Origin: a virus
Strand: one strand, 5' to 3'
Virus record (IMG/VR): IMGVR_UViG_3300030102_003183
Span: 1-22,344 of that record
Length of the DNA: 22,344 bases
Shown one piece after another: positions 1,857 to 17,079 of this stretch. The notes under the pieces were generated by a model. That model was given only the letters and a program-made list of their open reading frames with translations. It was not told the DNA's origin and searched no databases. Both the position numbers and the translations under genes were made by a program. How positions within the stretch are numbered: the stretch's first letter is position 1; the number at the start of each line of letters is the position of its first letter.

Positions 1857-2195
1857 ATGGCACAAGATTTTGAAAGGTATGGACAACATTCAGTAGGAAC
1901 TAGCGCAGTAGCTATTCATACTAGTAACTCGGATGACGCAATCATTTCTATTCGTTTAGCGAACACTACAACATCAACTATAAATGCAAGTATATTTGTT
2001 ACATCTTCTGTAACAGGTGGTTCACAAGACCACTACATAATTAAAAATGCGCCCATAGTTAGTGGCGGATCTTTGGAACTTATTGATGGGGGTTCAAAAA
2101 TAGTAATTGAGTCTGGAGACGTAGTGAAAGCACAATCAGATACTGCAAGTTCACTAAGTGTTTGGATGTCAGTTGTTGATGCAATAAGTACGTAA
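1857..2195 (+). CDS. Small beta-sandwich virion protein, 112 aa
   Basis: An all-beta pattern of alternating hydrophobic residues, with strands such as AIISIRLANTT, INASIFVTSSVT and GSKIVIESGDVVKAQSD. The strand order and closing region resemble the protein at 13369-13725, so both may share a fold used in neck or tail attachment proteins. The Shine-Dalgarno is AAGGA before the ATG. Its stop TAA overlaps the AAGGAG that serves the next gene. I recognise this type as a recurring unnamed phage structural protein. Confidence 0.72.
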   Translation: MAQDFERYGQHSVGTSAVAIHTSNSDDAIISIRLANTTTSTINASIFVTSSVTGGSQDHYIIKNAPIVSGGSLELIDGGSKIVIESGDVVKAQSDTASSLSVWMSVVDAIST

Positions 2196-2203
2196 GGAGA
2201 TTC

Positions 2204-2647
2204 ATGGCCTATCTAGGAAACGCACCAAAAGGAAATTTACTTACCATGAACTCTTCGCAGTTCTCTGGTGATGGTTCAACTGTAAACTTTACTCTTTCAC
2301 AAACTGTCGGTAACACCAACGAAATAGAAGTTTTTGTAGGAAATGTTCGTCAAGATCCTCACTCAGCATACACGGTATCTGGTGGTACAACTTTAGCATT
2401 TACTGCTGCACCACCAACAGGAACTAATAATATTTATGTAGTATATATTGGAAAATCTTTAGGTGAATCAACACCTGGAGAAAATTCAATTGAATTTGGT
2501 ATGATAAAAGCAATCAACGGTGGTTTTGAAAACAAAGCAACCATATCATCTAATATCACAGTTGCATCTGGAGATAACATGATGGTCTGTGGTCCAGCTT
2601 CCTTTACAGGCACAGTAACAGTTAACGGGACATTGACGGTAGTATAA
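2204..2647 (+). CDS. Fibre anchor-like protein, cassette A (147 aa)
   Basis: First gene of receptor-binding cassette A. Residues 20-83 contain FSGDGSTVNFTL, then EIEVFVGNVRQDPHSAYTV, then LAFTAAPPTGTNNIYVVYIG. This is the pattern of virion-anchoring domains at the start of T7-type tail fibres (Gly-Ser-Thr-x-x-Phe, hydrophobic strand, then a Phe-Thr/Ala-Pro-Pro turn). The remainder (112-147) is short repeated beta rungs ending TVTVNGTLTVV, like a small triple-stranded helix. I infer that it attaches cassette A fibres to the tail. The paralogue in cassette B is the gene at 5981. Strong Shine-Dalgarno AAGGAG at 2194-2199. Its GC content is visibly higher than that of the fibre heads downstream. 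Stop and next start overlap as TAATG. Confidence 0.78.
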   Translation: MAYLGNAPKGNLLTMNSSQFSGDGSTVNFTLSQTVGNTNEIEVFVGNVRQDPHSAYTVSGGTTLAFTAAPPTGTNNIYVVYIGKSLGESTPGENSIEFGMIKAINGGFENKATISSNITVASGDNMMVCGPASFTGTVTVNGTLTVV

Positions 2648-3207
2648 TGGGAACAATATTTGTAGATAATATTAAACAACAATCTTCACAAGGTAGTGGT
2701 ACAATTACTATTGGTGCGTCTGGTGAAACAGTCGCTTTAGCATCTGGTGTTAAACAAAGTAACTTAATGTACCCAGCTTTTTTTGCTCATGCTTCTTCAA
2801 ACACTAATATAAGTGACGGTGTTGTAACAACTATAATTTTTGGAACTGAGGTTTATGATACCGATAGTGCTTATGATAATAGCAATGGAAGATTTACTGT
2901 ACCAAGTGGTAAAGCTGGAAAATATTTTATTTATTCTGGTGTTCAATTGCAAGGTAGTAGTGATAATATTTTTTTAGATGGACAAATACAATTATTTAAA
3001 AATGGAAGTAGTGCGCATACATCAAGGATGATGCCATTAGGAGATGGTTTAATTTATACATTACAAGTCAATTTTGCTATCGATTTAGTTGCAACTGATT
3101 ATATAGAAATTAAAGCGTATCAGGATACTAACGGAGGTAATGGAGCATACAATGGTCATGCTTCACAATATAAATCATACTTTGGTGCATACAGAATAGG
3201 AGCATAA
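2647..3207 (+). CDS. C1q/TNF-like small tail fibre, cassette A-alpha (186 aa)
   Basis: Two parts are visible. Residues 1-35 (IFVDNIKQQSSQGSGTITIG then SGETVALASGV) are a short attachment segment shared with the genes at 3207 and 6999. From MYPAFFAHAS (residue 41) to the end is a C1q/TNF-like jelly-roll head with the landmarks VIFxTExYDTDxAYDN, GRFTVPSGKAGKYF, LFKNG and the terminal YFGAYRIGA. C1q-like heads in phages form trimers and bind host surface polymers. It starts inside the previous stop (TAATG) without a strong Shine-Dalgarno, so it is probably translationally coupled. Its nearest relative in cassette B is 6999-7544 (shared SGKAGKY and SGET(V/I)AL). Confidence 0.85.
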   Translation: MGTIFVDNIKQQSSQGSGTITIGASGETVALASGVKQSNLMYPAFFAHASSNTNISDGVVTTIIFGTEVYDTDSAYDNSNGRFTVPSGKAGKYFIYSGVQLQGSSDNIFLDGQIQLFKNGSSAHTSRMMPLGDGLIYTLQVNFAIDLVATDYIEIKAYQDTNGGNGAYNGHASQYKSYFGAYRIGA

Positions 3208-3758
3208 TGGGAACACTTAAAACAACAAACATACAAACGATCACTGGTTCAGGAACCCTGACTCTTGGTACATCGGGAGAGACTGTTAGTTTCGGATCAG
3301 GTGTTACAGGTTTGAATTATCCAGCTTTTCATGCTTTTATATCATCAAATCAAACTGTATCTGATAGTGTCGACACAAAAGCACAATGTGATACTGAGTT
3401 ACTTGATACAGATAGTTGTTATGATAATTCAACTAATTATCGTTTTACACCTAATGTTGCTGGTAAATATTTTGTTTTTGGACAAGTAAGAGGAGACTCA
3501 ACAGGTGCTGATAGTTTAGCAAGAGTTATTGTTAAAATTTATAAAAATGGTGCAAATGCTGCAGCCGCACAAAATTTTGGTTCTGTTACTAATTATTCAA
3601 ACGTTTATAGTCCATTTGTTTCTGTAATTTTAGACATGAACGGAACTTCAGATTATATTGAATTATTTGGTTTGGTTGACTCAGCAAGTGGAACACCTGA
3701 ATTTATTAGTGGCACAGTACCAATAACACACTTCGGTGCATACAGGATAGGAACATAA
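3207..3758 (+). CDS. C1q/TNF-like small tail fibre, cassette A-beta (183 aa)
   Basis: Residues 1-36 are the shared attachment segment (LKTTNIQTITGSGTLTLG, SGETVSFGSGV). The head begins at NYPAFHAFISS (residue 37) and carries DTDSCYDNSTNYRFTP, VAGKYFVFGQV, KIYKNG and the C-terminal FGAYRIGT. It is closest to 6439-6999 in cassette B, which has CYDNTTNYRFTPTVAGKYYV. The attachment segment is about 50% GC (30 of 60 bases in 3241-3300), while the head falls to 25% (15 of 60 in 3421-3480), which suggests a different history for the head. The start is coupled to the previous stop by TAATG, with AGGAG encoded by the preceding gene's own last codons. Confidence 0.85.
   Translation: MGTLKTTNIQTITGSGTLTLGTSGETVSFGSGVTGLNYPAFHAFISSNQTVSDSVDTKAQCDTELLDTDSCYDNSTNYRFTPNVAGKYFVFGQVRGDSTGADSLARVIVKIYKNGANAAAAQNFGSVTNYSNVYSPFVSVILDMNGTSDYIELFGLVDSASGTPEFISGTVPITHFGAYRIGT
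3732..3752 (+). repeat. 21-base C-terminal/RBS repeat, copy 1
   Basis: Identical to 6973-6993. It codes for the FGAYRIG ending of a C1q-like fibre and contains AGGATAGGA, which lies at Shine-Dalgarno distance from the next ATG. A sister 21-base pair encoding the FSGYRIG ending is at 4250-4270 and 7518-7538. Confidence 0.85.
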
Positions 3759-4276
3759 TGGCAGGAATAATTAAAGTAAATCAGTATCAAGACTTCAATG
3801 GTAACACAATACTTACCAGTGATGGTAATGGTAATCTTACTAATCAAAAAATATTGGTACCTTATTTTTCAGCGGGTAATAGTGCTAATCAAAGTATTTC
3901 TGCATCTACACTTACAAAAATTACTTTAGATACAGTTAATTATAATATTGGTGTTACTTTTGATACAACAAATTCAAGGTTTATAGTGCCATCAGGTTCT
4001 GCGGGAAAATATTGGTTTTGGGGAAATATAAACTTAGCGTCCAATGATGACAAGAGATATGATGGACAGCTTTATAAAAATGGTTCAGTGGTTAATACTA
4101 CATACACTAGAGAAGTTACAGGTGGTGGTGCAGGTTCAGTTATGATACCTGTTTATGGATTAGTAGATTTAGCTGTAGGGGATTATATAGAATTTTATGT
4201 AACTCATTCCAGCGCGTCTGCTCAAAGCACAAATAATTCATTTACAATTTTTTCAGGATACAGGATAGGAAGTTAA
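3758..4276 (+). CDS. C1q/TNF-like small tail fibre, cassette A-gamma (172 aa)
   Basis: Its N-terminal segment differs from the other two (GIIKVNQYQDFNGNTILTSDG) and matches that of 7546-8115 in cassette B. This marks a separate third position in each cassette. The head starts around PYFSAGNSANQSIS (residue 35) with FDTTNSRFIVPSGSAGKYWF, LYKNGSVV, LAVGDYIEFYV and a terminal FSGYRIGS, typical of C1q-like domains. Stop and start of the previous gene overlap by one base. The head coding region is very AT-rich (14 of 60 GC in 3901-3960). Receptor or surface-glycan binding is inferred from the fold. Confidence 0.85.
   Translation: MAGIIKVNQYQDFNGNTILTSDGNGNLTNQKILVPYFSAGNSANQSISASTLTKITLDTVNYNIGVTFDTTNSRFIVPSGSAGKYWFWGNINLASNDDKRYDGQLYKNGSVVNTTYTREVTGGGAGSVMIPVYGLVDLAVGDYIEFYVTHSSASAQSTNNSFTIFSGYRIGS
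4250..4270 (+). repeat. 21-base FSGYRIG/RBS repeat, copy 1
   Basis: Identical to 7518-7538. It encodes the FSGYRIG ending and supplies the ribosome site for the gene at 4279. Confidence 0.85.
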
Positions 4277-4278
4277 TT

Positions 4279-5403
4279 ATGGCATTAAGTAAAATAGATA
4301 CAACAAACATGATCGAGGATGTACCTCAATCGAAACTTGATAATAATATCAACTTCAGAAATATAATAATTAATGGCGGGATGGATGTAGCGCAAAGAGG
4401 AACTTCTGCTACAGGATTAGGTAATGGAGATAGTCAATATCTAATAGATAGATTTAAATTTTCTGAAGCTGGAGCACCAACTTTTGAATTTACTATGTCG
4501 CAAGATACTGATGTTCCAACTGGTCAAGGTTTTGCAAAGTCATTAAAAATGGATTGTACAACAGCACAAAGTAGTTTAGCTGCTGCTGATGGTTTAAGAA
4601 TAGAACAAAGATTTGAAGGTCAAAATTTACAGTATTTAAAAAAAGGAACATCATCTGCTGAAAGTTTAACTTTATCTTTTTGGGTTAAGTCTAATAAAAC
4701 TGGAACATATATTGCTGAACTTTTTGATAATGATAATACAAGACAAATTTCAAAATCATATACTATTTCTGCATCTAACACTTGGGAAAAGAAAACAATA
4801 ACTTATGCTGGAGATACATCTGGTTCATTAGGTAATGATAGTGGTCATTCTTTGGATGTAAGATTATGGTTAGGTGCTGGGAGTAACTTTACATCTGGAA
4901 CTCTAAATACTTCTTGGAACTCTGTTACAGCAGCTAACAGAGTAGTAGGTCAAGTCAACCTTGCAGATAGCACATCAAACGAATGGTACATAACAGGCGT
5001 ACAATTAGAAGCTGGAACAACTGCATCTGATTTTGAGTTCTTGCCTTTTGATGTAAATTTAAACAGATGTTATAGATATTATTTTGACACAACTAGTACA
5101 ATAAATGGAGGTGCTGGTTCTGGTTTAAGCGGTCTTTTTGTAATGAAAGCATTTAATGCTAATGAAGCTGCTGGGTACAATCCTTTTCCAGTTGCAATGA
5201 GAGCAGCTCCTACATTAACTATAATTGATAATTCTGGAACTGCTGGAAAGATACACAGGTTTGGTTCAGGTGATGTAGGCTCAAATATTAATTTTGGAAA
5301 TATTACAAATAATGCAGTTGTAGCTTGTAATGAAACAAATACATTTACAACGTCTGAGCCTAATCTTTATGGTGGAAGAATAAAAGCAGATGCGGAGTTA
5401 TAA
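4279..5403 (+). CDS. RNIIING-family tail fibre, cassette A (374 aa)
   Basis: A member of the phage fibre family whose N-terminus reads FRNIIINGGMDVAQRGTS (residues 26-43). The middle is a carbohydrate-binding-like jelly roll with the signatures DVPTGQGFAKSLKMDCT, EGQNLQYLKKGTSSAESLTL, FWVKSNKTGTYIAEL and TWEKKTITYAGDT. Near residues 234-269 comes NEWYITGVQLEAG, then DFEFLPFDVNLNRCYRYY. The last roughly 105 residues form a separate head that keeps the PVAMRAAPTLT motif and ends in AEL. The paralogue at 8117 matches up to RYY and then diverges. AGGATAGGA encoded at the end of the previous gene (4262-4270) is the ribosome site. Probable role: host recognition. Confidence 0.87.
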   Translation: MALSKIDTTNMIEDVPQSKLDNNINFRNIIINGGMDVAQRGTSATGLGNGDSQYLIDRFKFSEAGAPTFEFTMSQDTDVPTGQGFAKSLKMDCTTAQSSLAAADGLRIEQRFEGQNLQYLKKGTSSAESLTLSFWVKSNKTGTYIAELFDNDNTRQISKSYTISASNTWEKKTITYAGDTSGSLGNDSGHSLDVRLWLGAGSNFTSGTLNTSWNSVTAANRVVGQVNLADSTSNEWYITGVQLEAGTTASDFEFLPFDVNLNRCYRYYFDTTSTINGGAGSGLSGLFVMKAFNANEAAGYNPFPVAMRAAPTLTIIDNSGTAGKIHRFGSGDVGSNINFGNITNNAVVACNETNTFTTSEPNLYGGRIKADAEL

Positions 5404-5405
5404 TT

Positions 5406-5591
5406 ATGATTAATAAAGATGATATAACAACAGTAAGTAAAGTTTACTTTTTTGATGGAAGTTGGACATATAATGTTGTTGGCGCAGATTTTAAATGTTC
5501 TGTGCCACTAGACGAAGCAAACACAGATTACCAAGCAATACAAGAATGGATAGCAGATGGTGGAACTGTTATTGATAATCCACCAGAATAA
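5406..5591 (+). CDS. XkdW/fibre-assembly-like small protein, cassette A (61 aa)
   Basis: A short protein with a beta-rich start (VSKVYFFDGSWTYNVV) and the motif NTDYQAIQEWIADGGTVID at residues 39-57. The Tyr-x-Ala-Ile-x-Glu-Trp / Gly pattern is typical of XkdW-like and tail-fibre-assembly-like proteins encoded immediately after fibre genes. Such proteins are often fibre chaperones or caps. Its partner at 9211 ends cassette B in the same way and shares a 32-base identical DNA stretch (5518-5549). The GGAG ribosome site lies inside the preceding gene's last codons. A chaperone role is inferred from position and motif only. Confidence 0.72.
   Translation: MINKDDITTVSKVYFFDGSWTYNVVGADFKCSVPLDEANTDYQAIQEWIADGGTVIDNPPE
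5518..5549 (+). repeat. 32-base identical direct repeat, copy 1
   Basis: Identical to 9332-9363 by direct reading. It encodes the NTDYQAIQEW core of the small assembly-like proteins, while the surrounding sequence of the two genes differs. Confidence 0.85.
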
Positions 5592-5598
5592 TATATAA

Positions 5599-5618
5599 CG
5601 GAATAAGGAGGAAAAACT
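5599..5618 (+). promoter_or_regulatory. Strong ribosome-binding site
   Basis: TAAGGAGG lies about six bases before the ATG at 5619. It is a near-perfect Shine-Dalgarno, stronger than those in the fibre cassettes, and suggests independent, efficient initiation of the inter-cassette gene. Confidence 0.7.
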
Positions 5619-5966
5619 ATGGCATCACTATCAAGCAAAATCAAGAAGTACGCAGCGGCGAATGGTGTGGCTTCTGTAGATTTCATGGAAGATGTTCAAC
5701 TTCAGGACGACTCAAACGGTCAAGGCCCATACATTAAAGTATGGAACCTATCGATTGCAAAGCCGACTGATGAACAACTTGCATCTCATGATTCTGCAGC
5801 TGATCTTGAAGAGAGACAGAATGCAGTAAGAGCTACAAGAAGAGCAGCTTACGGTGATTTGGGTAGCCAGCTCGACATGCAGTACCACGATTCAGTAGAT
5901 GGTACAACTACGTGGAAAGACCATGTAGCAGCTGTCAAAACTGCAAACCCAATCCCAACTGAATAA
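5619..5966 (+). CDS. Tail-associated conserved phage protein, 115 aa, between fibre cassettes
   Basis: Contains YIKVWNLSIAKPTDEQLA (residues 38-55) and RRAAYGDLGSQLDMQYHD (74-91), followed by GTTTWKDHVAAVK. Proteins with a Tyr-Gly-x-x-Gly-x-Gln-Leu-Asp-Met-x-Tyr-His-Asp motif are widespread next to phage fibre genes and resemble the C-terminal part of fibre-assembly proteins; the function is not firmly known. It is predicted soluble and helical toward the end. Composition is unusual here: lines 5641-5940 are about 43-50% GC by hand count, against 23-30% in nearby fibre heads. It carries the strongest Shine-Dalgarno in the region. Its TAA overlaps the AAGGAGG for the next gene. It could be a chaperone shared by both cassettes. 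Confidence 0.75.
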   Translation: MASLSSKIKKYAAANGVASVDFMEDVQLQDDSNGQGPYIKVWNLSIAKPTDEQLASHDSAADLEERQNAVRATRRAAYGDLGSQLDMQYHDSVDGTTTWKDHVAAVKTANPIPTE

Positions 5967-5971
5967 GGAGG
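5965..5971 (+). promoter_or_regulatory. Shine-Dalgarno deciding a TTG start
   Basis: AAGGAGG nine bases before TTG at 5981. No in-frame ATG gives the conserved MAYxGxAP start, so this site and homology to the gene at 2204 support TTG initiation. Confidence 0.7.
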
Positions 5972-5980
5972 TAATACAAA

Positions 5981-6439
5981 TTGGCTTACGTAGGAAAAGC
6001 TCCATCATCGGGGCGATATAGTATACTAGATGATATCAGTGGTTCATTCACTGGATCAACAGCGGGTCCGTTTAACTTAACGGTCAATGGGACTGCTATA
6101 TCTCCAGGTAACGAAGCTAATTGTATTATCTCTATTTCGGGAGTCGTTCAAGAACCTCAAAGCGCATTTATAATCACAGGATCACAAATTACTTTCACAA
6201 GTAATCCTGCATCGTCAGATACATTTTTTGGTGTAGTGTTAGGTGATGTGTATGATATTGGAACTCCAACAGATTCAACAGTATCAGCAGGTTCTTTAAG
6301 TTCAACCTTCTTTGTAAAGAATAATCAAACCTGGTCAGATATTAATATGACAGGTTCAAACAACGGAGCGTTGGTTGGTCCAGTAACAGTTAGTGGTACA
6401 ATCACAATTCCATCAGGGAGTACATTTGTAATTTTATAA
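5981..6439 (+). CDS. Fibre anchor-like protein, cassette B (152 aa)
   Basis: Paralogue of the gene at 2204. Shared points are the start (MAYVGKAPSS against MAYLGNAPKG), a central strand series (CIISISGVVQEPQSAFIITGSQITF against the IEVFVGNVRQDPHSAYTV region) and a C-terminal beta-rung tail (GPVTVSGTITIPSGSTFVIL). Translation starts at TTG. I infer that it anchors cassette B fibres to the virion. GC is comparatively high (28 of 60 in 6061-6120), as in the other anchor gene. The stop overlaps the next ATG as TAATG. It is shorter and more divergent in its first 50 residues than a simple recent duplicate would be. Confidence 0.77.
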   Translation: MAYVGKAPSSGRYSILDDISGSFTGSTAGPFNLTVNGTAISPGNEANCIISISGVVQEPQSAFIITGSQITFTSNPASSDTFFGVVLGDVYDIGTPTDSTVSAGSLSSTFFVKNNQTWSDINMTGSNNGALVGPVTVSGTITIPSGSTFVIL

Positions 6440-6999
6440 TGAGTAAGTTAGAGACAAATACAATTGATACAGTATCAGGAACAACTAATTTAACTATTGG
6501 TTCTACTAATACGTCTACAATAACTGTTCCTAATGGTGCATTGTCTGGACAGAACTATCCAGCGTTTGAAGCAATTTTATCATCTACTCAAGCAACGACA
6601 GATGCTACACATACTAAAATTCAATTTAATACTGAAATTTTTGATACAGACAATTGTTACGACAACACTACAAATTACAGATTTACTCCAACAGTAGCTG
6701 GTAAGTATTATGTTTATGTAAAAGCTGAAATTGATTTTTCTGCAAATCAACAAGGTAATCAATCACAGGCTAGAATTTATAAAAATGGTTCTGCCTATTC
6801 TATGGCAGTTATACAAGCAACTTCAAATGCTATTGGAAGATTTGTTACTGTTTTTAACCATGCAATAGTAGATTTTAATGGAACGACAGACTATGTGGAA
6901 GGATATGGGTATGGTGATGATACGTCAGGTAATCCATCTATAACTGGTAATTCAAGTAATTATCGATCTGTGTTCGGTGCATACAGGATAGGAGCATAA
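6439..6999 (+). CDS. C1q/TNF-like small tail fibre, cassette B-beta (186 aa)
   Basis: N-terminal attachment segment SKLETNTIDTVSGTTNLTIG, then head from NYPAFEAILSS (residue 39). The head carries FNTEIFDTDNCYDNTTNYRFTP, VAGKYYVYVKAEI, RIYKNGSAY, VDFNGTTDYVEGYG and the terminal FGAYRIGA. It is most similar to 3207-3758 of cassette A (CYDN, TNYRFTP, VAGKY), although it holds the first C1q position in this cassette rather than the second. The head region is about 25% GC (15 of 60 in 6601-6660). The last codons provide AGGATAGGAG (6985-6994) for the next gene. Host-surface binding is inferred from the domain family. Confidence 0.85.
   Translation: MSKLETNTIDTVSGTTNLTIGSTNTSTITVPNGALSGQNYPAFEAILSSTQATTDATHTKIQFNTEIFDTDNCYDNTTNYRFTPTVAGKYYVYVKAEIDFSANQQGNQSQARIYKNGSAYSMAVIQATSNAIGRFVTVFNHAIVDFNGTTDYVEGYGYGDDTSGNPSITGNSSNYRSVFGAYRIGA
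6973..6993 (+). repeat. 21-base C-terminal/RBS repeat, copy 2
   Basis: Second copy of 3732-3752, at the end of the first C1q gene of cassette B and directly before the start at 6999. Confidence 0.85.
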
Positions 7000-7544
7000 T
7001 GGCAAACGGAACATTAAAAGTACAAAACATACAAACTAGCTCTGGATCAGGAACTATTACACTTGGTCAATCTGGGGAGACGATTGCTTTAGGAAGTGGT
7101 GTTACAAGTAATTTATTATATCCAGCTTTTAAAGCAACACTTTCAGCAAATCAAACTTTAGCAGACGACACATTAACAAGGTTTGCTTTTGATACTGAAG
7201 AATATGATACCGATAATGCTTATGATACCTCTACATATTTATTTACTTGTCCATCAGGAAAAGCAGGTAAATATGTTTTCGAATTCCATACATTAGTAGA
7301 TGACATAGATGATACTGATAGTGCAATAGCTTATATGGAATTAAATGGAACAAAAGTTGTAGGTTCTTTAGAACAAAAGTATGGTAGTAGTGGAACTCAA
7401 AATATAACTTTAAGCAATACAGTTACTGTTACATTAGTTGCTGGCGATGAAGTTGAAGTAGTAGGCAAACATTCAGGTACATCAGCTTCACAAGTTTTAA
7501 GAAGTGATGATACATTTTTTTCAGGATACAGGATAGGAGCATAA
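6999..7544 (+). CDS. C1q/TNF-like small tail fibre, cassette B-alpha (181 aa)
   Basis: Residues 1-36 (GTLKVQNIQTSSGSGTITLG, SGETIALGSGV) are the attachment segment shared with 2647 and 3207. The head runs from LYPAFKATLSANQ (residue 40) with FDTEEYDTDNAYDTSTYLFTCPSGKAGKYVFEF, YMELNGTKVV, LVAGDEVEVVGKHSG and the terminal FFSGYRIGA. In head features it pairs with 2647-3207, so the first two C1q genes appear in opposite order in the two cassettes. The start overlaps the previous stop by one base. No signal peptide or membrane segment is present, as expected of a virion protein. Confidence 0.85.
   Translation: MANGTLKVQNIQTSSGSGTITLGQSGETIALGSGVTSNLLYPAFKATLSANQTLADDTLTRFAFDTEEYDTDNAYDTSTYLFTCPSGKAGKYVFEFHTLVDDIDDTDSAIAYMELNGTKVVGSLEQKYGSSGTQNITLSNTVTVTLVAGDEVEVVGKHSGTSASQVLRSDDTFFSGYRIGA
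7518..7538 (+). repeat. 21-base FSGYRIG/RBS repeat, copy 2
   Basis: Identical to 4250-4270. It encodes the end of 6999-7544 and supplies the ribosome site for the gene at 7546. Confidence 0.85.
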
Positions 7545-7545
7545 T

Positions 7546-8115
7546 ATGAGCAGTATTTTAAAAGTAGACCAGCTTCAGGATTCAGGGGGGAATGAGATAA
7601 TCACTTCCAACGGATCAGGGACTATTACTGTTAATAACCAGACTTTTAAAAATGGAATTACAGAAGTTGACCAATGGAGATTAACAGCAAGTAAAGACAG
7701 TATAACATCAAGTTTTGTTGATATTACAGCAGATTTAGAAAGAGTTGATGAACCTGCCGCAACTTACATTGGAACAGGTATGTCACAATCTTCTGGTATA
7801 TTTACATTTCCTGTAACTGGAAAATGGAAAGTAGAGCAAACGGCAAGATGGTTTTCTAGTAGTGATGTTGATTGGTGTACTGTTGCTATTTTTGTAACAC
7901 AAGATAATTCTTCATATAACCAAGCAACCGAAGTTTACACTCACATGACTTCAAATCATTTTGGCAATCAATCATCATCTATAATTATTAATGTAACTGA
8001 CACATCATTAGTAAAAGTAAAATTTAGTGCAAAAGCACAGGCATCAGCAAACATAAATGGACACACAGATGAAAACCATACATTTTTTACATTTACAAGA
8101 TTAGGGGACACATAA
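7546..8115 (+). CDS. C1q-like/jelly-roll small tail fibre, cassette B-gamma (189 aa)
   Basis: The N-terminus (ILKVDQLQDSGGNEIITSNG) matches that of 3758-4276, so it occupies the third position. The body is more divergent than the other heads. It has SGIFTFPVTGKWKVEQTARW (a C1q-type strand pair), a VDWCTVAIFVTQDNSS stretch, SSIIINVTDTSLVKVKF and the ending FFTFTRLGDT in place of YRIG. It may therefore be a different jelly-roll subtype on the same attachment segment. Composition changes sharply after that segment: 29 of 60 GC in 7561-7620, then 18 of 60 in 7621-7680. AGGATAGGAG at 7530-7539 is the ribosome site. Its AGGGGAC-containing end may serve the next gene. Confidence 0.8.
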   Translation: MSSILKVDQLQDSGGNEIITSNGSGTITVNNQTFKNGITEVDQWRLTASKDSITSSFVDITADLERVDEPAATYIGTGMSQSSGIFTFPVTGKWKVEQTARWFSSSDVDWCTVAIFVTQDNSSYNQATEVYTHMTSNHFGNQSSSIIINVTDTSLVKVKFSAKAQASANINGHTDENHTFFTFTRLGDT

Positions 8116-8116
8116 A

Positions 8117-9208
8117 ATGGCAATAACAAGAATAGGTAACCCAGCAATCGCAGATCAAAGAGGTGTTGATTTTAGGAATATAATAATTAATGGAGATCAA
8201 TCTATCGCTCAACGTGGGACTTCAACAGCAAGTTTATCCTCTGGTGCAACTTTTGGTGCAACAGATAGATTTAAATTATATGGTGTTACTTTTGGAACTT
8301 GGACAATGAGCCAATCAACTGATGTACCAACTGGTCAAGGTTTTGTATCATCTTTAAAAATGGATTGCACGACTGCAAATGGAAGTTTATCTGCCGATAG
8401 TCAAGCACAAATATCACAAGGTATTGAAGGTCAAAATTTACAATATTTAAAAAAAGGCACATCAAATGCTGAAAGTCTTACTTGGTCTTTTTGGACAAAA
8501 TCAAATAAAACTGGAACTTATATTTGTCAAATTAGAGATATAGACAATAGTAGGTCAATATCTAAATCTTATACAATTTCATCTGCTGATACTTGGGAAA
8601 AGAAAATAATTACTTTTCCTGGAGATACTACTGGTGCATTAGGAAATGATAATGATAAAAGCTTCGAAATAAGATGGTGGTTAGTTGCTGGAACTAATTT
8701 TACATCTGGAACTTTAGCAACATCATGGGCTTCAGAAACAAATGCAAATAATGCAGTAGGTCAAGTAAATTTAGCAGATAGTACAAGTAATGAATGGTAT
8801 GTGACTGGAGCTCAATTAGAGGCAGGCAAAGTTGCAAGCGACTTTGAGTTCTTGCCAACTGATGTGAATTTAAGAAGATGCATGAGATACTATCAAGAAC
8901 CTAATAAAGGTTACAGAATGGATAATTACGTAGGTAGCTGTTATAATACTGCTAAAGCTTATGGACAAACAACTTTAAGCGTTCCTATGAGAACTCAACC
9001 TAGTGTAACATGGAACGCAGTAGGAACAGGAGATATTCAAGGATTTGCTGGTAATTCACAAAAAACATTAATTGCTATTTCAACTTCTAGATTGTCTCCT
9101 GATGCAGTTTCTTTTGTAATTGATGGAACATTTACAACAGGACAAGCAATTCATTTTAACAATTACGATACAACAAATCCATTAGTTAAAATAAGTGCGG
9201 AGTTATAA
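8117..9208 (+). CDS. RNIIING-family tail fibre, cassette B (363 aa)
   Basis: Paralogue of 4279-5403. It has FRNIIINGDQSIAQRGTS (residues 19-36), STDVPTGQGFVSSLKMDCT, EGQNLQYLKKGTSNAESLT, FWTKSNKTGTYICQI, TWEKKIITFPGDT and then NEWYVTGAQLEAG and DFEFLPTDVNLRRCMRYY. The region before MRYY aligns with cassette A almost without gaps. After it the heads differ, keeping only a PMRTQPSVT motif and a terminal SAEL. This is the pattern expected if the C-terminal head determines receptor choice. It starts one base after the previous stop. GGAG within the last codons serves the downstream small gene, as in cassette A. Confidence 0.87.
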   Translation: MAITRIGNPAIADQRGVDFRNIIINGDQSIAQRGTSTASLSSGATFGATDRFKLYGVTFGTWTMSQSTDVPTGQGFVSSLKMDCTTANGSLSADSQAQISQGIEGQNLQYLKKGTSNAESLTWSFWTKSNKTGTYICQIRDIDNSRSISKSYTISSADTWEKKIITFPGDTTGALGNDNDKSFEIRWWLVAGTNFTSGTLATSWASETNANNAVGQVNLADSTSNEWYVTGAQLEAGKVASDFEFLPTDVNLRRCMRYYQEPNKGYRMDNYVGSCYNTAKAYGQTTLSVPMRTQPSVTWNAVGTGDIQGFAGNSQKTLIAISTSRLSPDAVSFVIDGTFTTGQAIHFNNYDTTNPLVKISAEL

Positions 9209-9210
9209 TT

Positions 9211-9405
9211 ATGGTTAATAAAGAAAACATAGTATCAGTAGAAAAAAAATATCATGAAATAGATAATAGTTTTGTTTGCTATTCAGTAACTCATCAAAAT
9301 AATTTTATTGTTGATGTACCACATAACGAAACAAACACAGATTACCAAGCAATACAAGAATGGGCCGCAATAGAAGGCAATAACATTATCGATCCAGGAG
9401 CGTAA
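9211..9405 (+). CDS. XkdW/fibre-assembly-like small protein, cassette B (64 aa)
   Basis: Partner of 5406-5591. The start (VNKENIVSVEKKY against INKDDITTVSKVY) and NTDYQAIQEW (residues 42-51) are shared, while the middle differs. The DNA coding for the shared motif is identical over 32 bases (9332-9363) although the flanks are not. Its place after the large fibre, repeated in both cassettes, supports a role in folding or assembling that fibre. An 18-base junction sequence (TGCGGAGTTATAATTATG, 9196-9213) including the ribosome site and start codon is also the same as in cassette A. Confidence 0.72.
   Translation: MVNKENIVSVEKKYHEIDNSFVCYSVTHQNNFIVDVPHNETNTDYQAIQEWAAIEGNNIIDPGA
9332..9363 (+). 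repeat. 32-base identical direct repeat, copy 2
   Basis: Second copy of the repeat at 5518-5549, at the equivalent codon position of the cassette B small gene. Confidence 0.85.
9396..9400 (+). promoter_or_regulatory. Shine-Dalgarno deciding a GTG start
   Basis: AGGAG seven bases upstream of GTG at 9408. The protein start MFFGAQAF is confirmed by the paralogue at 10256, which begins MFFGATTF with ATG. Confidence 0.65.
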
Positions 9406-9407
9406 CC

Positions 9408-10256
9408 GTGTTCTTTGGTGCGCAGGCTTTTTCAGAGCGAGCTTTTGCCTCTGATTTCACACCAAACGCTTTAGCCGTTTTAACAGGTAGTCAACTAACA
9501 ACTAACGTTGGAAACGTTACTACAACTGCTGGTGCAAACACAGCAGTTACAGGGAATTCTTTTGCACTAGCAAATGGTACTGTTATTACAACAGCAGGTG
9601 CAAATGTTCCTATAACTGGTAATCCATTTACTCTTGGAACAGGAACTGTAAGCGTTACAGGAAATGCTAATGTAGCTGCTACAGGAAGTAATCTAACTTT
9701 CACAATCGGTAATGTAACTGTTACTGCAGCGGCTAATGTTTCAGTAACCGGTAATCAAGTAACAATTACAACAGGTAATCCAACTATTGTTGCAAATGCA
9801 GTTACAGCATTAACTGGATCCGGTGTTACACTTGCAACAGGAACAGCTCAAAGTAAAGTAAATATCACAGCTGCTGTTACAGGAAATCAATTTACAACAT
9901 CTGTTGGTAATGTAACCACAACTGCTGCGGCAACAATCTTGCCTAACGGATCAGCGGTTACAACATCAACAGGAACAGTTACTATATCTGGAGCTGCAAA
10001 CTTTGCAGTTACAGGAAGTAATGTTACTCTAACTGTAGGAAATGCTACAACTAAAGCAAATGCAACAATATCTGTTACAGGAAATCAAGCAAGTTTAGCT
10101 ACAGGAACTGTAACAATTACAGCTGCCGCAACAGCTCTACCTACAGGAAGTTCTTTATCATTAGATACAAGTGATGTATTAATAAGAAAATGGGATGGTA
10201 TTTTACCTGGAGCAACGCAGGTATGGGTACCGGTACAAACAGGAAAAGGTAGTTAA
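9408..10256 (+). CDS. 22-residue-repeat virion protein, 282 aa
   Basis: After a 25-residue leader (MFFGAQAFSERAFASDFTPN...), residues 26-245 are ten exact-length 22-residue repeats of the type TG(N/S)xxTxxxGxVTxTAxAN. An eleventh, degenerate unit spans 246-267, and a tail (GATQVWVPVQTGKGS) closes the protein. No charged residue occurs in most units, and Val, Thr, Ala and Gly dominate. The regular spacing suggests a beta-solenoid or stacked beta-hairpin shaft. The neighbouring gene at 10256 has the same leader and the same kind of ending with only about two units. I recall similar Thr/Val/Gly repeat proteins in marine phages, without assigned function. A thin fibre, spike or spacer on the virion is plausible. 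It starts at GTG. Confidence 0.82.
   Translation: MFFGAQAFSERAFASDFTPNALAVLTGSQLTTNVGNVTTTAGANTAVTGNSFALANGTVITTAGANVPITGNPFTLGTGTVSVTGNANVAATGSNLTFTIGNVTVTAAANVSVTGNQVTITTGNPTIVANAVTALTGSGVTLATGTAQSKVNITAAVTGNQFTTSVGNVTTTAAATILPNGSAVTTSTGTVTISGAANFAVTGSNVTLTVGNATTKANATISVTGNQASLATGTVTITAAATALPTGSSLSLDTSDVLIRKWDGILPGATQVWVPVQTGKGS
9483..10208 (+). repeat. Tandem 66-base coding repeats (11 units)
   Basis: Eleven consecutive 66-base units encode the 22-residue repeats. Units are diverged at DNA level but retain short identical words; for example GTTACAGGAAATCAA occurs at 9876-9890 and 10074-10088, and again at 10328-10342 in the next gene. There are no length errors across units, so the frame has been kept under selection. 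Confidence 0.85.
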
Positions 10257-10501
10257 TGTTTTTTGGAGCAACAACATTTGCAGGTGACGCTTTTGCAGGA
10301 TTAGGTACATTTGGTAATGTGGTTAATGTTACAGGAAATCAAACTACAATAAGTATAGGAAACACGACTACAGCATCAGGTTATCCTGTTACAGGTAGTC
10401 AAATTAGTGTTGCAACTGGCAGTCCTTTTGTGGTAATATGGACGCCAATCGATCCAAACGCATCGGGAACGTGGATACCTATTGATCCACTTAACCCATA
10501 A
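10256..10501 (+). CDS. Short paralogue of the 22-residue-repeat protein, 81 aa
   Basis: The leader MFFGATTFAGDAFAGLGTFG matches the start of the preceding protein (MFFGAQAF...AFA). It is followed by about two repeat-like units (VTGNQTTISIGNTTTASGYP, VTGSQISVATGSP) and an aromatic Trp-x-Pro ending (GTWIPIDPLNP against QVWVPVQTG). It therefore looks like a contracted version of the long gene with both caps kept. The ATG overlaps the previous TAA by one base, so the two are probably translated together and may co-assemble, for instance as long and short forms. Function unknown. Confidence 0.8.
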   Translation: MFFGATTFAGDAFAGLGTFGNVVNVTGNQTTISIGNTTTASGYPVTGSQISVATGSPFVVIWTPIDPNASGTWIPIDPLNP

Positions 10502-10509
10502 GGAGAAAT

Positions 10510-11229
10510 ATGGCATCAAGTTATTCAAGTGATATAAAATTAGAACTAATGACAACCGGTGAAAAGTCCGGTACATGGGGTACAATTACTAATACAAACC
10601 TACAGATTTTAGAACAAGCAGCATCAGGATATCATACAGCAAATATAGGAGCAGCAGATTTAGCTCTTAGTTTATCTAACGGTGCAACATCAAATGGTAA
10701 GAATTTATACTTTAAATTTACAGGTACATTAACTGCAAACAGAACAGTTACAATGCCAGACTCTGCTGAAAGAGTATTTATTGTAGAAGATGCAACAGCT
10801 AGATCTTCATCAAATTACACATTAACTGTAAAAACAGTATCAGGTACAGGAGTTGCAATACCTATAGGTGCTAAAATAGTATTATATTCTGATGGCACAA
10901 ATATAAACGCAGGTCCTATCACTAAAGGTTATTATACACCTAGTGCCACTTACACTACGGTTAATGGAGACCAAGTATTAATTGATACATCAGGAGGTGG
11001 AATAGGTACTGCTATAACAATAAACTTACCAGCTTCCCCAAGTATAGGTAATGAAGTTACATTTATAGATAGTGGTAATAACCTTGCATCTAACAACTTA
11101 ACAGTTGGAAGAAACGGATCTAACATTAATGGAGCTGCTTCTGACTTAGTTGTTTCAACAAATGCTTCAGCTTTTACTTTGGTGTATGTTAATGCAACTA
11201 GAGGCTGGGTCTATAAAGATAAGATATAG
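10510..11229 (+). CDS. GEKSGTWG-family virion protein, 239 aa
   Basis: The N-terminal signature ELMTTGEKSGTWGTITNTNL followed by QILEQAASGY (residues about 12-41) is found, as I recall, in many tail-fibre-like and structural proteins of marine phages. The rest is beta-rich, with FKFTGTLTANRTVTMPDSAE (pyocin-knob-like wording often seen in fibres), TLTVKTVSGTGVAIPIGAKI and GNEVTFIDSGNNL, and it closes with FTLVYVNATRGWVYKDKI. That ending, in which a Trp reads out a final strand, is common in these proteins. Strong Shine-Dalgarno AAGGAG at 10500-10505. It is likely part of the tail appendage or of the fibre-nozzle junction, as it lies directly before the nozzle-like gene. Confidence 0.8.
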   Translation: MASSYSSDIKLELMTTGEKSGTWGTITNTNLQILEQAASGYHTANIGAADLALSLSNGATSNGKNLYFKFTGTLTANRTVTMPDSAERVFIVEDATARSSSNYTLTVKTVSGTGVAIPIGAKIVLYSDGTNINAGPITKGYYTPSATYTTVNGDQVLIDTSGGGIGTAITINLPASPSIGNEVTFIDSGNNLASNNLTVGRNGSNINGAASDLVVSTNASAFTLVYVNATRGWVYKDKI

Positions 11230-11240
11230 GAGCACGGACC

Positions 11241-13193
11241 ATGGCTCTTATTGAATTTAAATTCAAACCAGGAATCGATAAACAAGACACTGAAGTGGGT
11301 GCAGAATCAAGATGGGTTGATTCTGATAATGTTAGATTTAGATATGGTTTACCAGAAAAAGTTGGTGGCTGGTCTTCTTTAGTAACAGATTCTTTAGTAG
11401 GTGTTGCAAGACAACAACACGCTTTTGTTGATTTAGATGGTAATAGATATATCGCAATCGGTACAGATAAATTCTTGATTATATACTTTGAAGGTCAATT
11501 CTACGATGTTACTCCTTTAGCAACAGCCTTAACTTCTTGTACTATAACAACTGTTTCTGGATCTGCTGAAGTTACAATTACAAAAACTTCACATGGATTA
11601 AAAGCAGGAGACATTGTTTTATTATCTTCAACAACTTTACCAGGTGGTACAGGTTATTCTGCATCTGACTTTGATGACAAACTATTTCAAGTAACTTCAA
11701 TTACAAACGCAAACAATTTTAAAATAACACAAACCAGTAATGCTACTGGTAATGCAGGTCCAGGAGGCAGTGTTACAGTTACACCTTATGAAACAGTAGG
11801 TCCTGCAGCACAATCGTATGGTTATGGTTGGGGTACAGATACATGGGGATCAAGCACTTGGGGTACAGCTTCATCAGCAGATGATGTAGTTCTTGAACCG
11901 GGGTTATGGTCTTTAGATAACTTTGGTGAAGTATTAATTGCAACTATTGCAAATGGTAAAACATTTACATGGAATGCAGGTGATGCTGCAAGATTAACTA
12001 CAAGAGCTTCTACTGGTACAACAGGTTTTTCAACTACCAATAATCCAACTGCATCAAGAATGACAATGGTATCACCAACAACAAGACACTTAGTACACTT
12101 TGGAACAGAAACAACTATTGCAGATTCTACAACACAAGATGATATGTTTGTAAGGTTCTCGGACCAAGAAAATATAAATAGTTTTGCACCAACTGCAGTT
12201 AACACTGCAGGTGATTTTAGATTACAAGATGGTACAAAAATCATGGGTGCTATGAAAGCAAAAGAAACAATATTGATATGGACTGACAATGCATTGTATA
12301 CAATGAAGTTTGTTGGTGCACCTTTTACATTTGGTTTTGAACAAGTTGGTACAAACTGTGGATTGATTGGTAAAAATGCAGTAATAGAAATTGATGGTAA
12401 TGCATTTTGGATGAGTCCAAAAGGTTTCTTTATGTATGATGGTACAGTTAAATCTTTACCATGTAGTGTTGAAGATTTTGTTTATGATAGTATTGACACT
12501 ACAAAAGGACAACAAGTTGCAGCAGGATTAAATAATTTATTTACAGAAGTTGTTTGGTATTATCCTTCTTCAGGTTCAGAATATAATGACAAGTATGTTG
12601 TATTTAATTATGGTGAGTCTGGTAGAGAAGGTGTTTGGTACACAGGAACAGAAGCAAGAACATCATGGATCGATGCAACTATATATCCAAAACCATCTGC
12701 AACTAAATTTAACGCATCTGCATCAGGAAGTTTTCCAACTGTAGTTGGTGAATCTGGTTTAGGTCAAACAGTATTATTTGAACATGAGGTTGGAACAGAT
12801 CAAGTAAATCCTGATGGTACAACAACCACAGTTACATCATTTATAAAATCGTTTGATATAGATTTAGAACAAAGACAAAGAACAGCAACTGGTCAATCTA
12901 CTGGTCCAAAAGTTGCAGGTGAAGTATTTTTAGCTATGAGAAGATTTGTACCTGATTTTAAAACACTTGCAGGTAATGCAAAAGTTACTTTAAAAGTAAA
13001 AAGATACCCGCAAGATTCTGATTCAAATACACAAGCAGCACTAAGTCCTTTTACAATTACTGCAACGACACAGAAAAAAGATACAAGAGCAAGAGGACGT
13101 TTTGTTAATTTAAAAATAGAGAACGATGCTGTATCAGAATCATGGAGATTTGGTACATTACGTTTAGATTTACAACCGGATGGTAGGAGATAA
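11241..13193 (+). CDS. Probable tail nozzle / DNA-stabilisation protein, 650 aa
   Basis: The N-terminus (FKPGIDKQDTEVGAESRW, then DNVRFRYGLPEKVGGW) is the conserved start of a podovirus family related in layout to T7 gp12 (nozzle) and P22 gp10 (packaged-DNA stabilisation). An inserted domain near residues 90-185 has TSHGLKAGDIVLLSS and FQVTSITNANNFKITQT, a small beta domain known from several phage proteins. The remainder has blade-like repeats (LWSLDNFGEVLIATIANGKT, RHLVHFGTETTIADSTTQDD, ILIWTDNALYTMKFVGAP, GNAFWMSPKGFFMYDG, WYYPSSGSEYNDKYVVFNYG) suggesting a beta-propeller. It probably closes the tail tube below the adaptor. AGGAG at 11228-11232 precedes the ATG. The nozzle assignment is inferred from sequence pattern and gene order. 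Confidence 0.78.
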   Translation: MALIEFKFKPGIDKQDTEVGAESRWVDSDNVRFRYGLPEKVGGWSSLVTDSLVGVARQQHAFVDLDGNRYIAIGTDKFLIIYFEGQFYDVTPLATALTSCTITTVSGSAEVTITKTSHGLKAGDIVLLSSTTLPGGTGYSASDFDDKLFQVTSITNANNFKITQTSNATGNAGPGGSVTVTPYETVGPAAQSYGYGWGTDTWGSSTWGTASSADDVVLEPGLWSLDNFGEVLIATIANGKTFTWNAGDAARLTTRASTGTTGFSTTNNPTASRMTMVSPTTRHLVHFGTETTIADSTTQDDMFVRFSDQENINSFAPTAVNTAGDFRLQDGTKIMGAMKAKETILIWTDNALYTMKFVGAPFTFGFEQVGTNCGLIGKNAVIEIDGNAFWMSPKGFFMYDGTVKSLPCSVEDFVYDSIDTTKGQQVAAGLNNLFTEVVWYYPSSGSEYNDKYVVFNYGESGREGVWYTGTEARTSWIDATIYPKPSATKFNASASGSFPTVVGESGLGQTVLFEHEVGTDQVNPDGTTTTVTSFIKSFDIDLEQRQRTATGQSTGPKVAGEVFLAMRRFVPDFKTLAGNAKVTLKVKRYPQDSDSNTQAALSPFTITATTQKKDTRARGRFVNLKIENDAVSESWRFGTLRLDLQPDGRR

Positions 13194-13970: not shown

Positions 13971-16144
13971 TGGCAATAACTAACGCACAACAATACCAAC
14001 AACTTGTAAGAAAAGACGCCAACGGTAAACGTCCAGGTTATCGTGGAGATGCTGCGTATAGAAGTAGAAGTGCACAGTCAAGCACTAAAGCTGGTGGACA
14101 AGGTAATGTTGGAACACAAGCTAGTTTTGGTGGAAGCGATAGAGATAGTCGTCAATCTACAGTTTATGGACCTACTCGTCCATCTGATAATGCTCCTACA
14201 AAAAAATCAATAGATAAAGCAAAAAAATTTCAAGAAGAGCAAAAACAAAAAAGAGAAGAAGCGGAGAAAAAAAGAAAACAACAAGAAATATTAAATTTCT
14301 TTGATCCAAGACCGAAAGCTTATAAATTAGCTTCTTTGATACCGGGTGCAGAAAAAAATTTAGGTTCTCAAAGACGAAAGTATAAAAAATATTTGAAGTA
14401 TAGAGGCGCTCCAATTCCTGATTTTTTAGAAGACGAAGAAAATTTAACAAGTTATGATACGTATAAGGATTTGTTATCTTACAAACCAACTGAATATACT
14501 AGAGGTGTAGGGGATGAAGCTGTTTTAATGCCTGCTCCTGATACATATGAAGATTATTTATATAAAAAAGGTAACCCTACTTTAAAAATGAAAGGGAATG
14601 TAGGAGGTTTAAGATTTGAACCAAGCACTGGTGAGTATGTTAGAACAGGAGACGGTGGCCAAGATCAACCAATCATTCCAGTTGTTCCTACAACCACAGG
14701 AATTGCATCAGCTACAACAGGTACAACCGCAGCCAGTGACACATCAGATTTAGATGACTACATAGCACAAATGAGAGAAGGAGCTGCTTATAGATTCTTT
14801 GCAGATGGTGGTAGAGTTCCTGCTCAACAAGGTGGGATCATGCCTAGACTAAATGAATTAAGTGGTGGTGTGTCTTCCGCAGAACAAATGTTACAAGAAA
14901 TAAATCAAAGATTAGATTCAGCTGAATCTACTTTAGGTGAAAGTGGAGGATCAATATCAAGTAGTCAAATACCTTTTAGACCATTACCTGGTTTTTACGA
15001 TCAATTAAGACAAATGCCAATTGGACAACCTTTAAATAATTCAAGAACTGCTGGTCTAGCTTCAATAACAAACTATACTCCGTTTGCAGGAGAAACTTTT
15101 AATCAAGTTCCAGAACAATTTAGAGCTGGTTTTGATGAATACACAAAAGAAAATCCAATAGGAATTGGGGGACAAGCTATGACTCCTGTAGGGCTTCCAG
15201 ATGGAAATAGAGTAATGTTCAGTAACACTGCTAGTGCTGGAGCATTTAGTGATTATTTAAATTCAATAGGTCAAGGTGTTTCTCCAGTTGGTACAGCAAC
15301 AGCAATACAATCACCAATAGCAAATGCTATGAGACCGTTTGCAGATGGTGGTAGAGCTGACGATGATGAGGATTACGTAGGTGGGATCATGGACCTTGAA
15401 TCAGCAAGACAGATGTATGGTCTAGGTAAACTTGTAAAGAAAGTAACACGTGGTATTAAAAAGATTGCTAAATCTCCTGTGGGTAAAATTGCATTGTTAG
15501 CAGGTGGTGCAGGGCTTTTATCAAAAGGAGGTTTTGGTTTACCAAGTTTTTTATCTAAAAAAGGTCTTTCAGATTTCTTTTTTGCAGGAAAACCTATGGC
15601 TTTAAAAAATTTAACTCAAAGAGGTTTATTAACAGGTATTGGAGGGTTATCTGCATTCGCAGGTCTTATGACTCCTAAAGAAGAAGAAGATGAAGATACT
15701 TATTTAGGACCAACACTAGACATAGCTGGGATTAGACAAAACCCTTACGCAGCTATGGGTGAAACATATAGATTTGCAGCTGATGGTGGTTTAATGAGAC
15801 AAAATTATGCTGAAGGTTCTAAAGAACCAGTAGCTAAAAAAACTATGCCATTATTAGATATGGATGGTATGGAAAAGGATTATAGAGCAGATGGTGGATT
15901 CGTGCCAATAGGTAGAATGGAAAGAGCTGACGACGTACCTGCTAGACTATCTAAAAATGAGTTCGTATTTACAGCTGATGCTGTAAGAAACGCTGGTGAT
16001 GGAGATGTAGACAAAGGCGCAGAAGTTATGTATAACATGATGAAAAACCTCGAAGCCGGAGGTAACGTATCAGAGGAATCGCAAGGCTTAGATGGCGCTA
16101 GAAAAATGTTTCAAACATCACAAAGATTAGAGGAAGTATTGTAA
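13970..16144 (+). CDS. Putative internal virion (ejection) protein with ADGG motifs, 724 aa
   Basis: The N-terminus is basic and disordered (GKRPGYRGDAAYRSRSAQSS), followed by a highly charged helix at residues 78-109 (Lys/Glu/Gln-rich). Short ADGG motifs recur at about residues 278, 458, 605 and 640, twice as ADGGR. Residues about 488-530 form a basic amphipathic then glycine-rich hydrophobic region (LVKKVTRGIKKIAKSPVGKI, then ALLAGGAGLL) that could insert in or cross a membrane. The C-terminus has ERADDVPARLSKNEFVFTAD (651-670), a motif shared by many phage tail and internal proteins. Gene order after the nozzle matches T7 gp14-gp16 ejection proteins. It shares one base with both neighbours. 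The ejection role is inferred. Confidence 0.75.
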   Translation: MAITNAQQYQQLVRKDANGKRPGYRGDAAYRSRSAQSSTKAGGQGNVGTQASFGGSDRDSRQSTVYGPTRPSDNAPTKKSIDKAKKFQEEQKQKREEAEKKRKQQEILNFFDPRPKAYKLASLIPGAEKNLGSQRRKYKKYLKYRGAPIPDFLEDEENLTSYDTYKDLLSYKPTEYTRGVGDEAVLMPAPDTYEDYLYKKGNPTLKMKGNVGGLRFEPSTGEYVRTGDGGQDQPIIPVVPTTTGIASATTGTTAASDTSDLDDYIAQMREGAAYRFFADGGRVPAQQGGIMPRLNELSGGVSSAEQMLQEINQRLDSAESTLGESGGSISSSQIPFRPLPGFYDQLRQMPIGQPLNNSRTAGLASITNYTPFAGETFNQVPEQFRAGFDEYTKENPIGIGGQAMTPVGLPDGNRVMFSNTASAGAFSDYLNSIGQGVSPVGTATAIQSPIANAMRPFADGGRADDDEDYVGGIMDLESARQMYGLGKLVKKVTRGIKKIAKSPVGKIALLAGGAGLLSKGGFGLPSFLSKKGLSDFFFAGKPMALKNLTQRGLLTGIGGLSAFAGLMTPKEEEDEDTYLGPTLDIAGIRQNPYAAMGETYRFAADGGLMRQNYAEGSKEPVAKKTMPLLDMDGMEKDYRADGGFVPIGRMERADDVPARLSKNEFVFTADAVRNAGDGDVDKGAEVMYNMMKNLEAGGNVSEESQGLDGARKMFQTSQRLEEVL

Positions 16145-17076: not shown

Positions 17077-17079
17077 ATT

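Follow-up and report, generated by a model that had tools for sequence, protein, structure and literature searches.

Sequence evidence for two putative tail arms with slot-specific tags and interchangeable heads in a marine phage fragment

Gene content of the locus

The stretch of DNA analysed here, referred to as the window, is the 22,344-base IMG/VR virus record IMGVR_UViG_3300030102_003183, a genome fragment (22 kb) without the replication genes PolA, helicase and primase. It carries two sets of putative receptor-binding genes, which are treated in the following as two arms, namely arm 1 at 2204-5591 (A1, three heads, E1, F1) and arm 2 at 5981-9405 (A2, three heads, E2, F2). As judged from the map of open reading frames and the protein comparison, the original prediction, made from the sequence alone, was right in placing the same six-gene order twice at these coordinates, and the twelve genes are adjacent and tightly packed, with overlapping stop and start codons in several cases. 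The sixth gene of each set had been taken as XkdW-like, but neither F1 nor F2 gives an XkdW match at E 0.1, and the single XkdW-family gene lies between the sets. The genes are as follows (slots p1 to p3 and a terminal slot, T, in each arm).

1857..2195, plus strand: g5, small virion-type protein, ahead of the two-arm module in relatives and isolates
2204..2647, plus strand: A1, arm 1 anchor, 147 residues; phrog_18673 tail fiber, E 3.5e-13; in a clade with the arm 1 anchors of other phages
2647..3207, plus strand: B1, arm 1 slot p1; tag (about residues 1-30) and C1q-like head; Pfam C1q E 5e-4 (below cut-off), head-only C1q profile E 3e-38
3207..3758, plus strand: C1, arm 1 slot p2; tag MGTLKTTNIQTITGSGTLTLG and C1q-like head; head-only C1q profile E 1e-45
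3758..4276, plus strand: D1, arm 1 slot p3; tag MAGIIKVNQYQDFNGNTILTSDG and C1q head; Pfam C1q E 1.6e-7
4279..5403, plus strand: E1, arm 1 terminal slot; arm-specific tag MALSKIDTTNMIEDVPQSKLDNN and RNIIING fibre; phrog_4492 tail fiber, E 4e-67
5406..5591, plus strand: F1, small partner of E1; arm-specific C-terminal third YQAIQEWIADGGTVIDNPPE
5619..5966, plus strand: X, single XkdW-family protein between the arms; PF09636 E 1.5e-13
5981..6439, plus strand: A2, arm 2 anchor, 152 residues, TTG start; phrog_18673 tail fiber, E 3e-49; in a clade of its own
6439..6999, plus strand: B2, arm 2 slot p1; tag MSKLETNTIDTVSGTTNLTIG and C1q-like head; Pfam C1q E 5.5e-4 (below cut-off), head-only profile E 3e-49
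6999..7544, plus strand: C2, arm 2 slot p2; tag MANGTLKVQNIQTSSGSGTITLG and C1q head; Pfam C1q E 1.4e-10; matches C1q-like proteins in PDB
7546..8115, plus strand: D2, arm 2 slot p3; tag MSSILKVDQLQDSGGNEIITSNG and D2-type head with a C1q/TNF jelly-roll fold in the predicted structure
8117..9208, plus strand: E2, arm 2 terminal slot; tag MAITRIGNPAIADQRG and RNIIING fibre; phrog_4492 E 5e-53
9211..9405, plus strand: F2, small partner of E2; arm-specific C-terminal third YQAIQEWAAIEGNNIIDPGA

An all-against-all comparison of the paired genes bears out the predicted pairing for one part of the set, namely the anchors (A1/A2, 26% identical, E 2e-5), the large fibres (E1/E2, 59% identical over 291 residues, E 1e-100) and their partners (F1/F2, 47% identical, E 3e-10), but not for the small heads, where proteins at corresponding positions are not each other's nearest relatives: B1 is closest to C2, C1 is closest to B2, and D1 and D2 are alike only in their first 28 residues. 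At the DNA level, repeats 3.8 kb apart within the E genes share 77% identity over 300 nucleotides.

Slot-specific tags and free heads

Several hundred related loci were collected with the tail hub, E2, A2, A1 and X as queries, and the resulting set leans towards two-arm phages because proteins of the window served as bait. Slots were named by gene order alone and not by tag, and a nearest-neighbour test was applied to 270 proteins from 61 loci, with residues 1-25 taken as the tag and residues 45 to the end as the head. The tag gave the correct slot in 96.7% of these proteins (permutations yielded 14% on average and 20% at most), while the head did so in 30% overall and, for p1-p3 of arm 1, in 13%, which equals chance. 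When neighbours were excluded if the anchors of their loci were 85% or more identical, the values were still 94.8% for the tag and 25% for the head. Among the tag types, MGTIKTTNIE.. belongs to arm 1 p2, MSKLETNTID.. to arm 2 p1, where it is also found in the isolate HTVC115P, and MxSILKVDxIQD..GN to arm 2 p3.

The same separation of tag and head is seen in individual proteins. Near-identical heads occur behind different tags (99% identity between a head in arm 1 p2 and one in arm 1 p1, 95% between arm 1 p3 and arm 2 p2, and 92% and 90% in further pairs), and in such pairs the DNA identity sets in directly after the tag and does not extend past the stop codon. The isolates HTVC115P and Lederberg EXVC029P share the same four arm 2 tag types, which precede three C1q heads in one and four heads of the altE family in the other. 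In a tree of the RNIIING fibres that includes the tag, the arm label changes only once (none of 500 shuffles was as low), whereas it changes 11 times when the tag is left out (12.1 on average in the shuffles, 142 of 500 of which were as low), and the fibre therefore keeps no memory of its arm once its tag is removed. A simple mixing of these fibres between the arms, as the labels of the best BLAST matches had indicated, was rejected since the full-length tree contradicts it, and the removal of the tag explains the discrepancy. Finally, the distance between arm 1 anchors tracks that between the tags (r 0.45, 0.78, 0.81 and 0.28; all p 0.0005) but hardly that between the heads (r 0.10-0.19), although tags and heads alternate along the DNA. 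The predicted contrast of varying heads and constant attachment segments in two sets of probable binding proteins is supported by the related loci.

Head families

The heads at these loci belong to the C1q-like family, the D2-type family, altE as a third small family, and the large RNIIING fibres. Classification was done on the head alone with a profile built here, which identifies five of the six small heads of the window as C1q-type. Three C1q genes per set had been predicted; Pfam C1q recognises four of the six heads (two of them above the cut-off), the profile adds a fifth, and the sixth, D2, joins them by its predicted fold alone. D2 (7546-8115) has no match in Pfam and no relatives in PDB by sequence, so its fold was predicted, as the sole head modelled. 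The AlphaFold2 model has a predicted local distance difference test score (pLDDT) of 90 and matches C1QL3 in Foldseek (E 2e-6, template modelling score 0.80 by target), and the D2 head is accordingly modelled as a C1q/TNF jelly roll. Heads of another appearance, of about 160-230 residues and ending in DVDDSTVIIVK or DVDDTTVIIVK, are followed by two small proteins at two of the related loci (L174, ~10459-11400; L166, ~6314-7450).

Anchors, terminal fibre and partner proteins

A profile of A1 and A2 matches residues 580-674 of the fibre gp28 of cyanophage P-SCSP1u (E 1.4e-12), and the T7-type tail-fibre domain PF03906 matches A1 below the cut-off (E 0.019) and A2 not at all. Genes with fused anchor and head occur in relatives and isolates, indicating that anchors and heads are parts of the same structure. 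The large fibres are tied to their small partners: F comes next after an RNIIING fibre in 44 of 46 cases and a partner of the sm type after an altE head in 37 of 48, and the two combinations are never crossed. Some sm proteins match Phage_tail_APC, a tail-assembly-chaperone family (best E 2e-11); F itself shows no match to anything of known function, but by its correspondence to sm it is probably a chaperone too, acting in the assembly of the large fibre. Since F is fully arm-specific in its C-terminal third and not in its N-terminal part, the unit exchanged at the terminal slot seems to span from behind the fibre tag into F. Co-evolution of the variable part of F with the RNIIING head was not significant (r 0.12, p 0.10). 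Gene X is kept in place in relatives (mostly 75-89% identical), and neither X nor E1 has a PDB match by sequence.

Placement of the phage

The tail hub h4 (11241-13193) is 66% identical to that of 023Pt_psg01, 51% to that of HTVC027P and 46% to that of HTVC023P, and the ejection-type genes downstream of the hub follow the order of HTVC023P and HTVC027P. Taking tail hub homology and ejection-gene order together as the mark of the HTVC023P type, the window belongs to it, and a short-tailed phage related to the SAR11 (Pelagibacter) phages of this type is the best explanation of its gene content. Upstream of the arms, g2 is an SU10-type head-tail adaptor (PF24175, E 5e-24), so that the two arms sit between adaptor and hub, and homologues of g5 in HTVC019P and HTVC010P are annotated as virion structural protein. 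Behind arm 2, h1 and h2 (9408-10501) are Thr/Gly-rich repeat proteins that are 41% identical to each other and whose relatives adjoin h3 in many loci. An ADGGR motif is repeated in h7 and h9 (14801-18005), with DNA repeats at 14801 and 17968 that are 74% identical. A tRNA scan of the window found none.

Age and spread of the two arms

A search of related contigs for the number of cassettes, as the original prediction had proposed, found both arms in the same order in all 25 contigs spanning the region; in each of them X and A2 are in position and the arm 1 anchor is of the A1 type, whether fused or not. The order is also present in cultured pelagiphages such as HTVC115P, and the isolates generally show g5, A1 fused to a head, one or more fibres, A2 and further heads. 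Orthologues of A1 and A2 at the same place in other phages are mostly 70-90% identical where A1 is unfused, and those of A2 reach 58% in HTVC115P and 62% in Lederberg. In a tree of 70 anchors, A1 of the window groups with environmental arm 1 anchors and those of HTVC115P, HTVC019P, HTVC100P, HTVC106P, HTVC035P and Lederberg, apart from A2. Both anchor clades are old and take in isolates of different pelagiphage groups; the positional arm label switches a few times on this tree because some relatives place X differently, while the anchor type stays. Nearly all contigs have an A2 72-93% identical to that of the window, compared to 45 to 76% for the hub, and this greater uniformity means that the module spans different backbones.

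When the tags of arm 1 are compared with those of arm 2, the pairing p1-p1, p2-p2, p3-p3 and T-T is the best overall among 24 orders. It is the best in 6 of the 11 loci with all eight slots, p1 and p2 being hard to tell apart and swapped in the window itself. As the tags are related in register, an ancient duplication of the attachment parts is plausible from the sequences, whereas a co-duplication of the heads is no longer visible in them, the heads having been exchanged between slots, arms and phages.

Discussion

Taken together, the data are probably best accounted for by two tail-attached arms, each with four address-coded sockets into which interchangeable heads of several families are fitted. 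Each arm would be built on A1 or A2, a small and probably trimeric anchor that is fixed to the tail and carries the slots p1, p2, p3 and terminal. The slot-specific N-terminal tag of about 20-30 residues most likely docks each protein at its own place, while the C-terminal head would bind the cell surface. Recombination behind the tag would then swap heads between phages, slots and arms, the large fibre being replaced jointly with its small partner, the probable assembly chaperone, and the arm would remain buildable while its specificity changes. Widening or switching of the host range, as originally predicted, would be a reasonable purpose for such putative binding sets.

Several observations weigh against this reading. 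The predicted anchor structure is of poor quality (pLDDT 74) and none of its fold matches reaches significance (best E 0.011), even though the N-termini of T7 gp17 (E 0.19) and of CBA120 TSP4 are among them, and the tag region of the D2 monomer model is of low confidence (pLDDT 59-72). In arm 2 the correlation of anchor and tag is weak (r 0.16-0.25), perhaps because A2 varies little. Some slot preference remains in the heads (30-45%), with the D2-type favouring p3. The tags are also conserved as DNA, with an identity of 0.59-0.73 at four-fold degenerate third bases compared to 0.51-0.57 in the anchors, and their constancy could therefore partly reflect a use as recombination joints.

The last point leads to the view that the tags are kept mainly as DNA, either as recombination joints or as translation-start signals at the overlapping gene borders, and not for protein docking. 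It agrees with the position of the exchange boundaries, at the tag on one side and the stop/start junction on the other, and with a 32-nucleotide gene-junction repeat that has four copies in the window. A pure recombination joint, however, would be uniform, whereas the tags differ between slots; their amino acid pattern spans 20-30 codons, which is longer than any start signal, survives 27-41% differing four-fold third bases and tracks the anchor type in arm 1. Pure DNA signals are thus the less likely reading and, on this evidence, an unlikely one, but the tags may serve recombination as well. It is similarly doubtful, and if anything slightly more so, that p1, p2 and p3 form one heterotrimer, like the chains A, B and C of vertebrate C1q, or a chain stacked end to end, instead of filling separate sockets. 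Three small heads per arm are usual, all three are C1q in 29 arms, and the last residues of the C1q heads are conserved, as such an assembly would have it. Yet p1-p3 of one arm are often of unrelated families, the D2-type and altE heads lack the C1q ending, and near-identical heads change position, which a heterotrimer should resist.

Small jelly-roll proteins can also decorate capsids, and the set might accordingly belong to the capsid or neck; this is quite improbable for genes that lie between g2 and h4, whose anchors match a tail-fibre family and whose partners of the sm type fall in part into tail-assembly-chaperone families. Least credible is the history first proposed for the locus, a recent tandem duplication in this lineage that doubled the six-gene cassette and widened the host range. 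The repeated gene order and the similarity of E1 and E2 speak for it, but A1 and A2 stand in separate old clades common to other phages, with orthologues in place elsewhere, and corresponding heads are not mutual closest relatives. With both arms present in all 25 spanning contigs, a duplication arising in, or peculiar to, this phage is not supported.

Among known systems, the arms with address-coded sockets appear closest in principle to the branched tailspike complex of the Ackermannviridae, which would work alike without the present set being a member of it. There, several binding proteins (TSP1-4) sit on one branched complex, conserved N-termini place the proteins, variable C-termini set the receptor, and similar 5' ends allow the exchange of genes (PMC11414711). 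However, in that complex whole domains (XD2, XD3, TD1) form the N-termini of large spikes, while the window has eight slots with short tags, mostly small jelly-roll heads that move between slots and arms, and a separate anchor starting each arm; no XD/Gp10-like N-terminal domains or beta-helix spikes were matched in Pfam or PHROGs among the window proteins. In pelagiphages, metaviromic islands with hypervariable C1q proteins near the tail fibres were reported by Mizuno in 2014; passages of that report describe C1q genes that under-recruit in the head and not in the N-terminus, and XkdW and tail-fibre-assembly genes within the islands, but the comparison there is of single genes, and these passages make no mention of slots, address tags, two arms or positional exchange (PMC3909814). 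Conserved N-termini with variable receptor-binding C-termini, branched complexes and hypervariable pelagiphage C1q genes are thus already known (PMC11414711, PMC3909814). The isolates HTVC115P, HTVC019P, HTVC100P, HTVC106P, HTVC035P and Lederberg EXVC029P have g5, a fused A1, one or more fibres and A2 with heads, and X between or after the arms, but their deposited annotations mostly read hypothetical protein or tail fiber, and the arm 2 anchor is also a long fusion in several. By analogy only, trimers of BclA with C1q-like heads on the Bacillus exosporium attach to a second trimeric protein, BxpB, via part of a 38-residue N-terminal domain; as far as that account goes, this is a spore surface with a collagen-like stalk, without a slot series or head swapping (PMC10470788). 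A paper pairing the term interchangeable with C1q concerns allele shuffling of phage genes and not slot tags (PMC7468147), and searches of an open-access library turned up no account of short tags specific to a slot, of two arms with four sockets each or of heads that move from socket to socket.

Loci of other make-up were also seen. At this place, HTVC023P-type phages that lack the arms carry a row of three or four long fibres, in some of these phages with arm-like tags (MSKIEVDxIDKQSG, MTSTIKVDNIQ, MSEVKVNKISP) and the common C-terminus IIRYKFQ (L081, 2914-7297; L083, 235-5931; L038, 278-4708); in psg01, a stub of 58 residues resembling the end of an anchor precedes the long fibres. As judged from their sequences, these fibres appear to be a second, related use of the tag grammar. 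In L013 and L052 (~1.4-8.2 kb) the same locus is replaced by long fibres whose tags are MSEVKVNKISPRSG and MSSILKVDTIQD and whose endings, PATAR among them, are repeated. In the SAR116 phage HMO-2011 (L243, 3713-10243), small fibre genes are numerous and end in motifs such as HGDLA; with its two anchor-like proteins, this phage may represent a variant in which the slots are smaller and more numerous. In the OM43 phage Melnitz-3 (Kyanoviridae; L349, 4741-12027), two genes resemble g5, several anchors are A1-like and another is of the A2 type, and assembly chaperones are present as well; by this gene content the module may extend beyond short-tailed phages.

On a wider scale, we lean, if only slightly, towards the view that phages of SAR11 and neighbouring marine bacteria share an address-coded adhesion machine, in which a tail anchor and related tags would provide one socket per tag for several pluggable head families, and whose tag grammar would extend beyond the two-arm module. 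Few organisms and viruses of the ocean are as numerous as SAR11 and its phages, and host recognition by these phages is poorly known. If the proposed eight-socket, tag-coded system is correct, it would explain how a stable tail is combined with a changing binding surface and by which mechanism the C1q islands described in 2014 are hypervariable, and receptor-binding genes could be picked out by their tags in many marine phage contigs that lack annotation.

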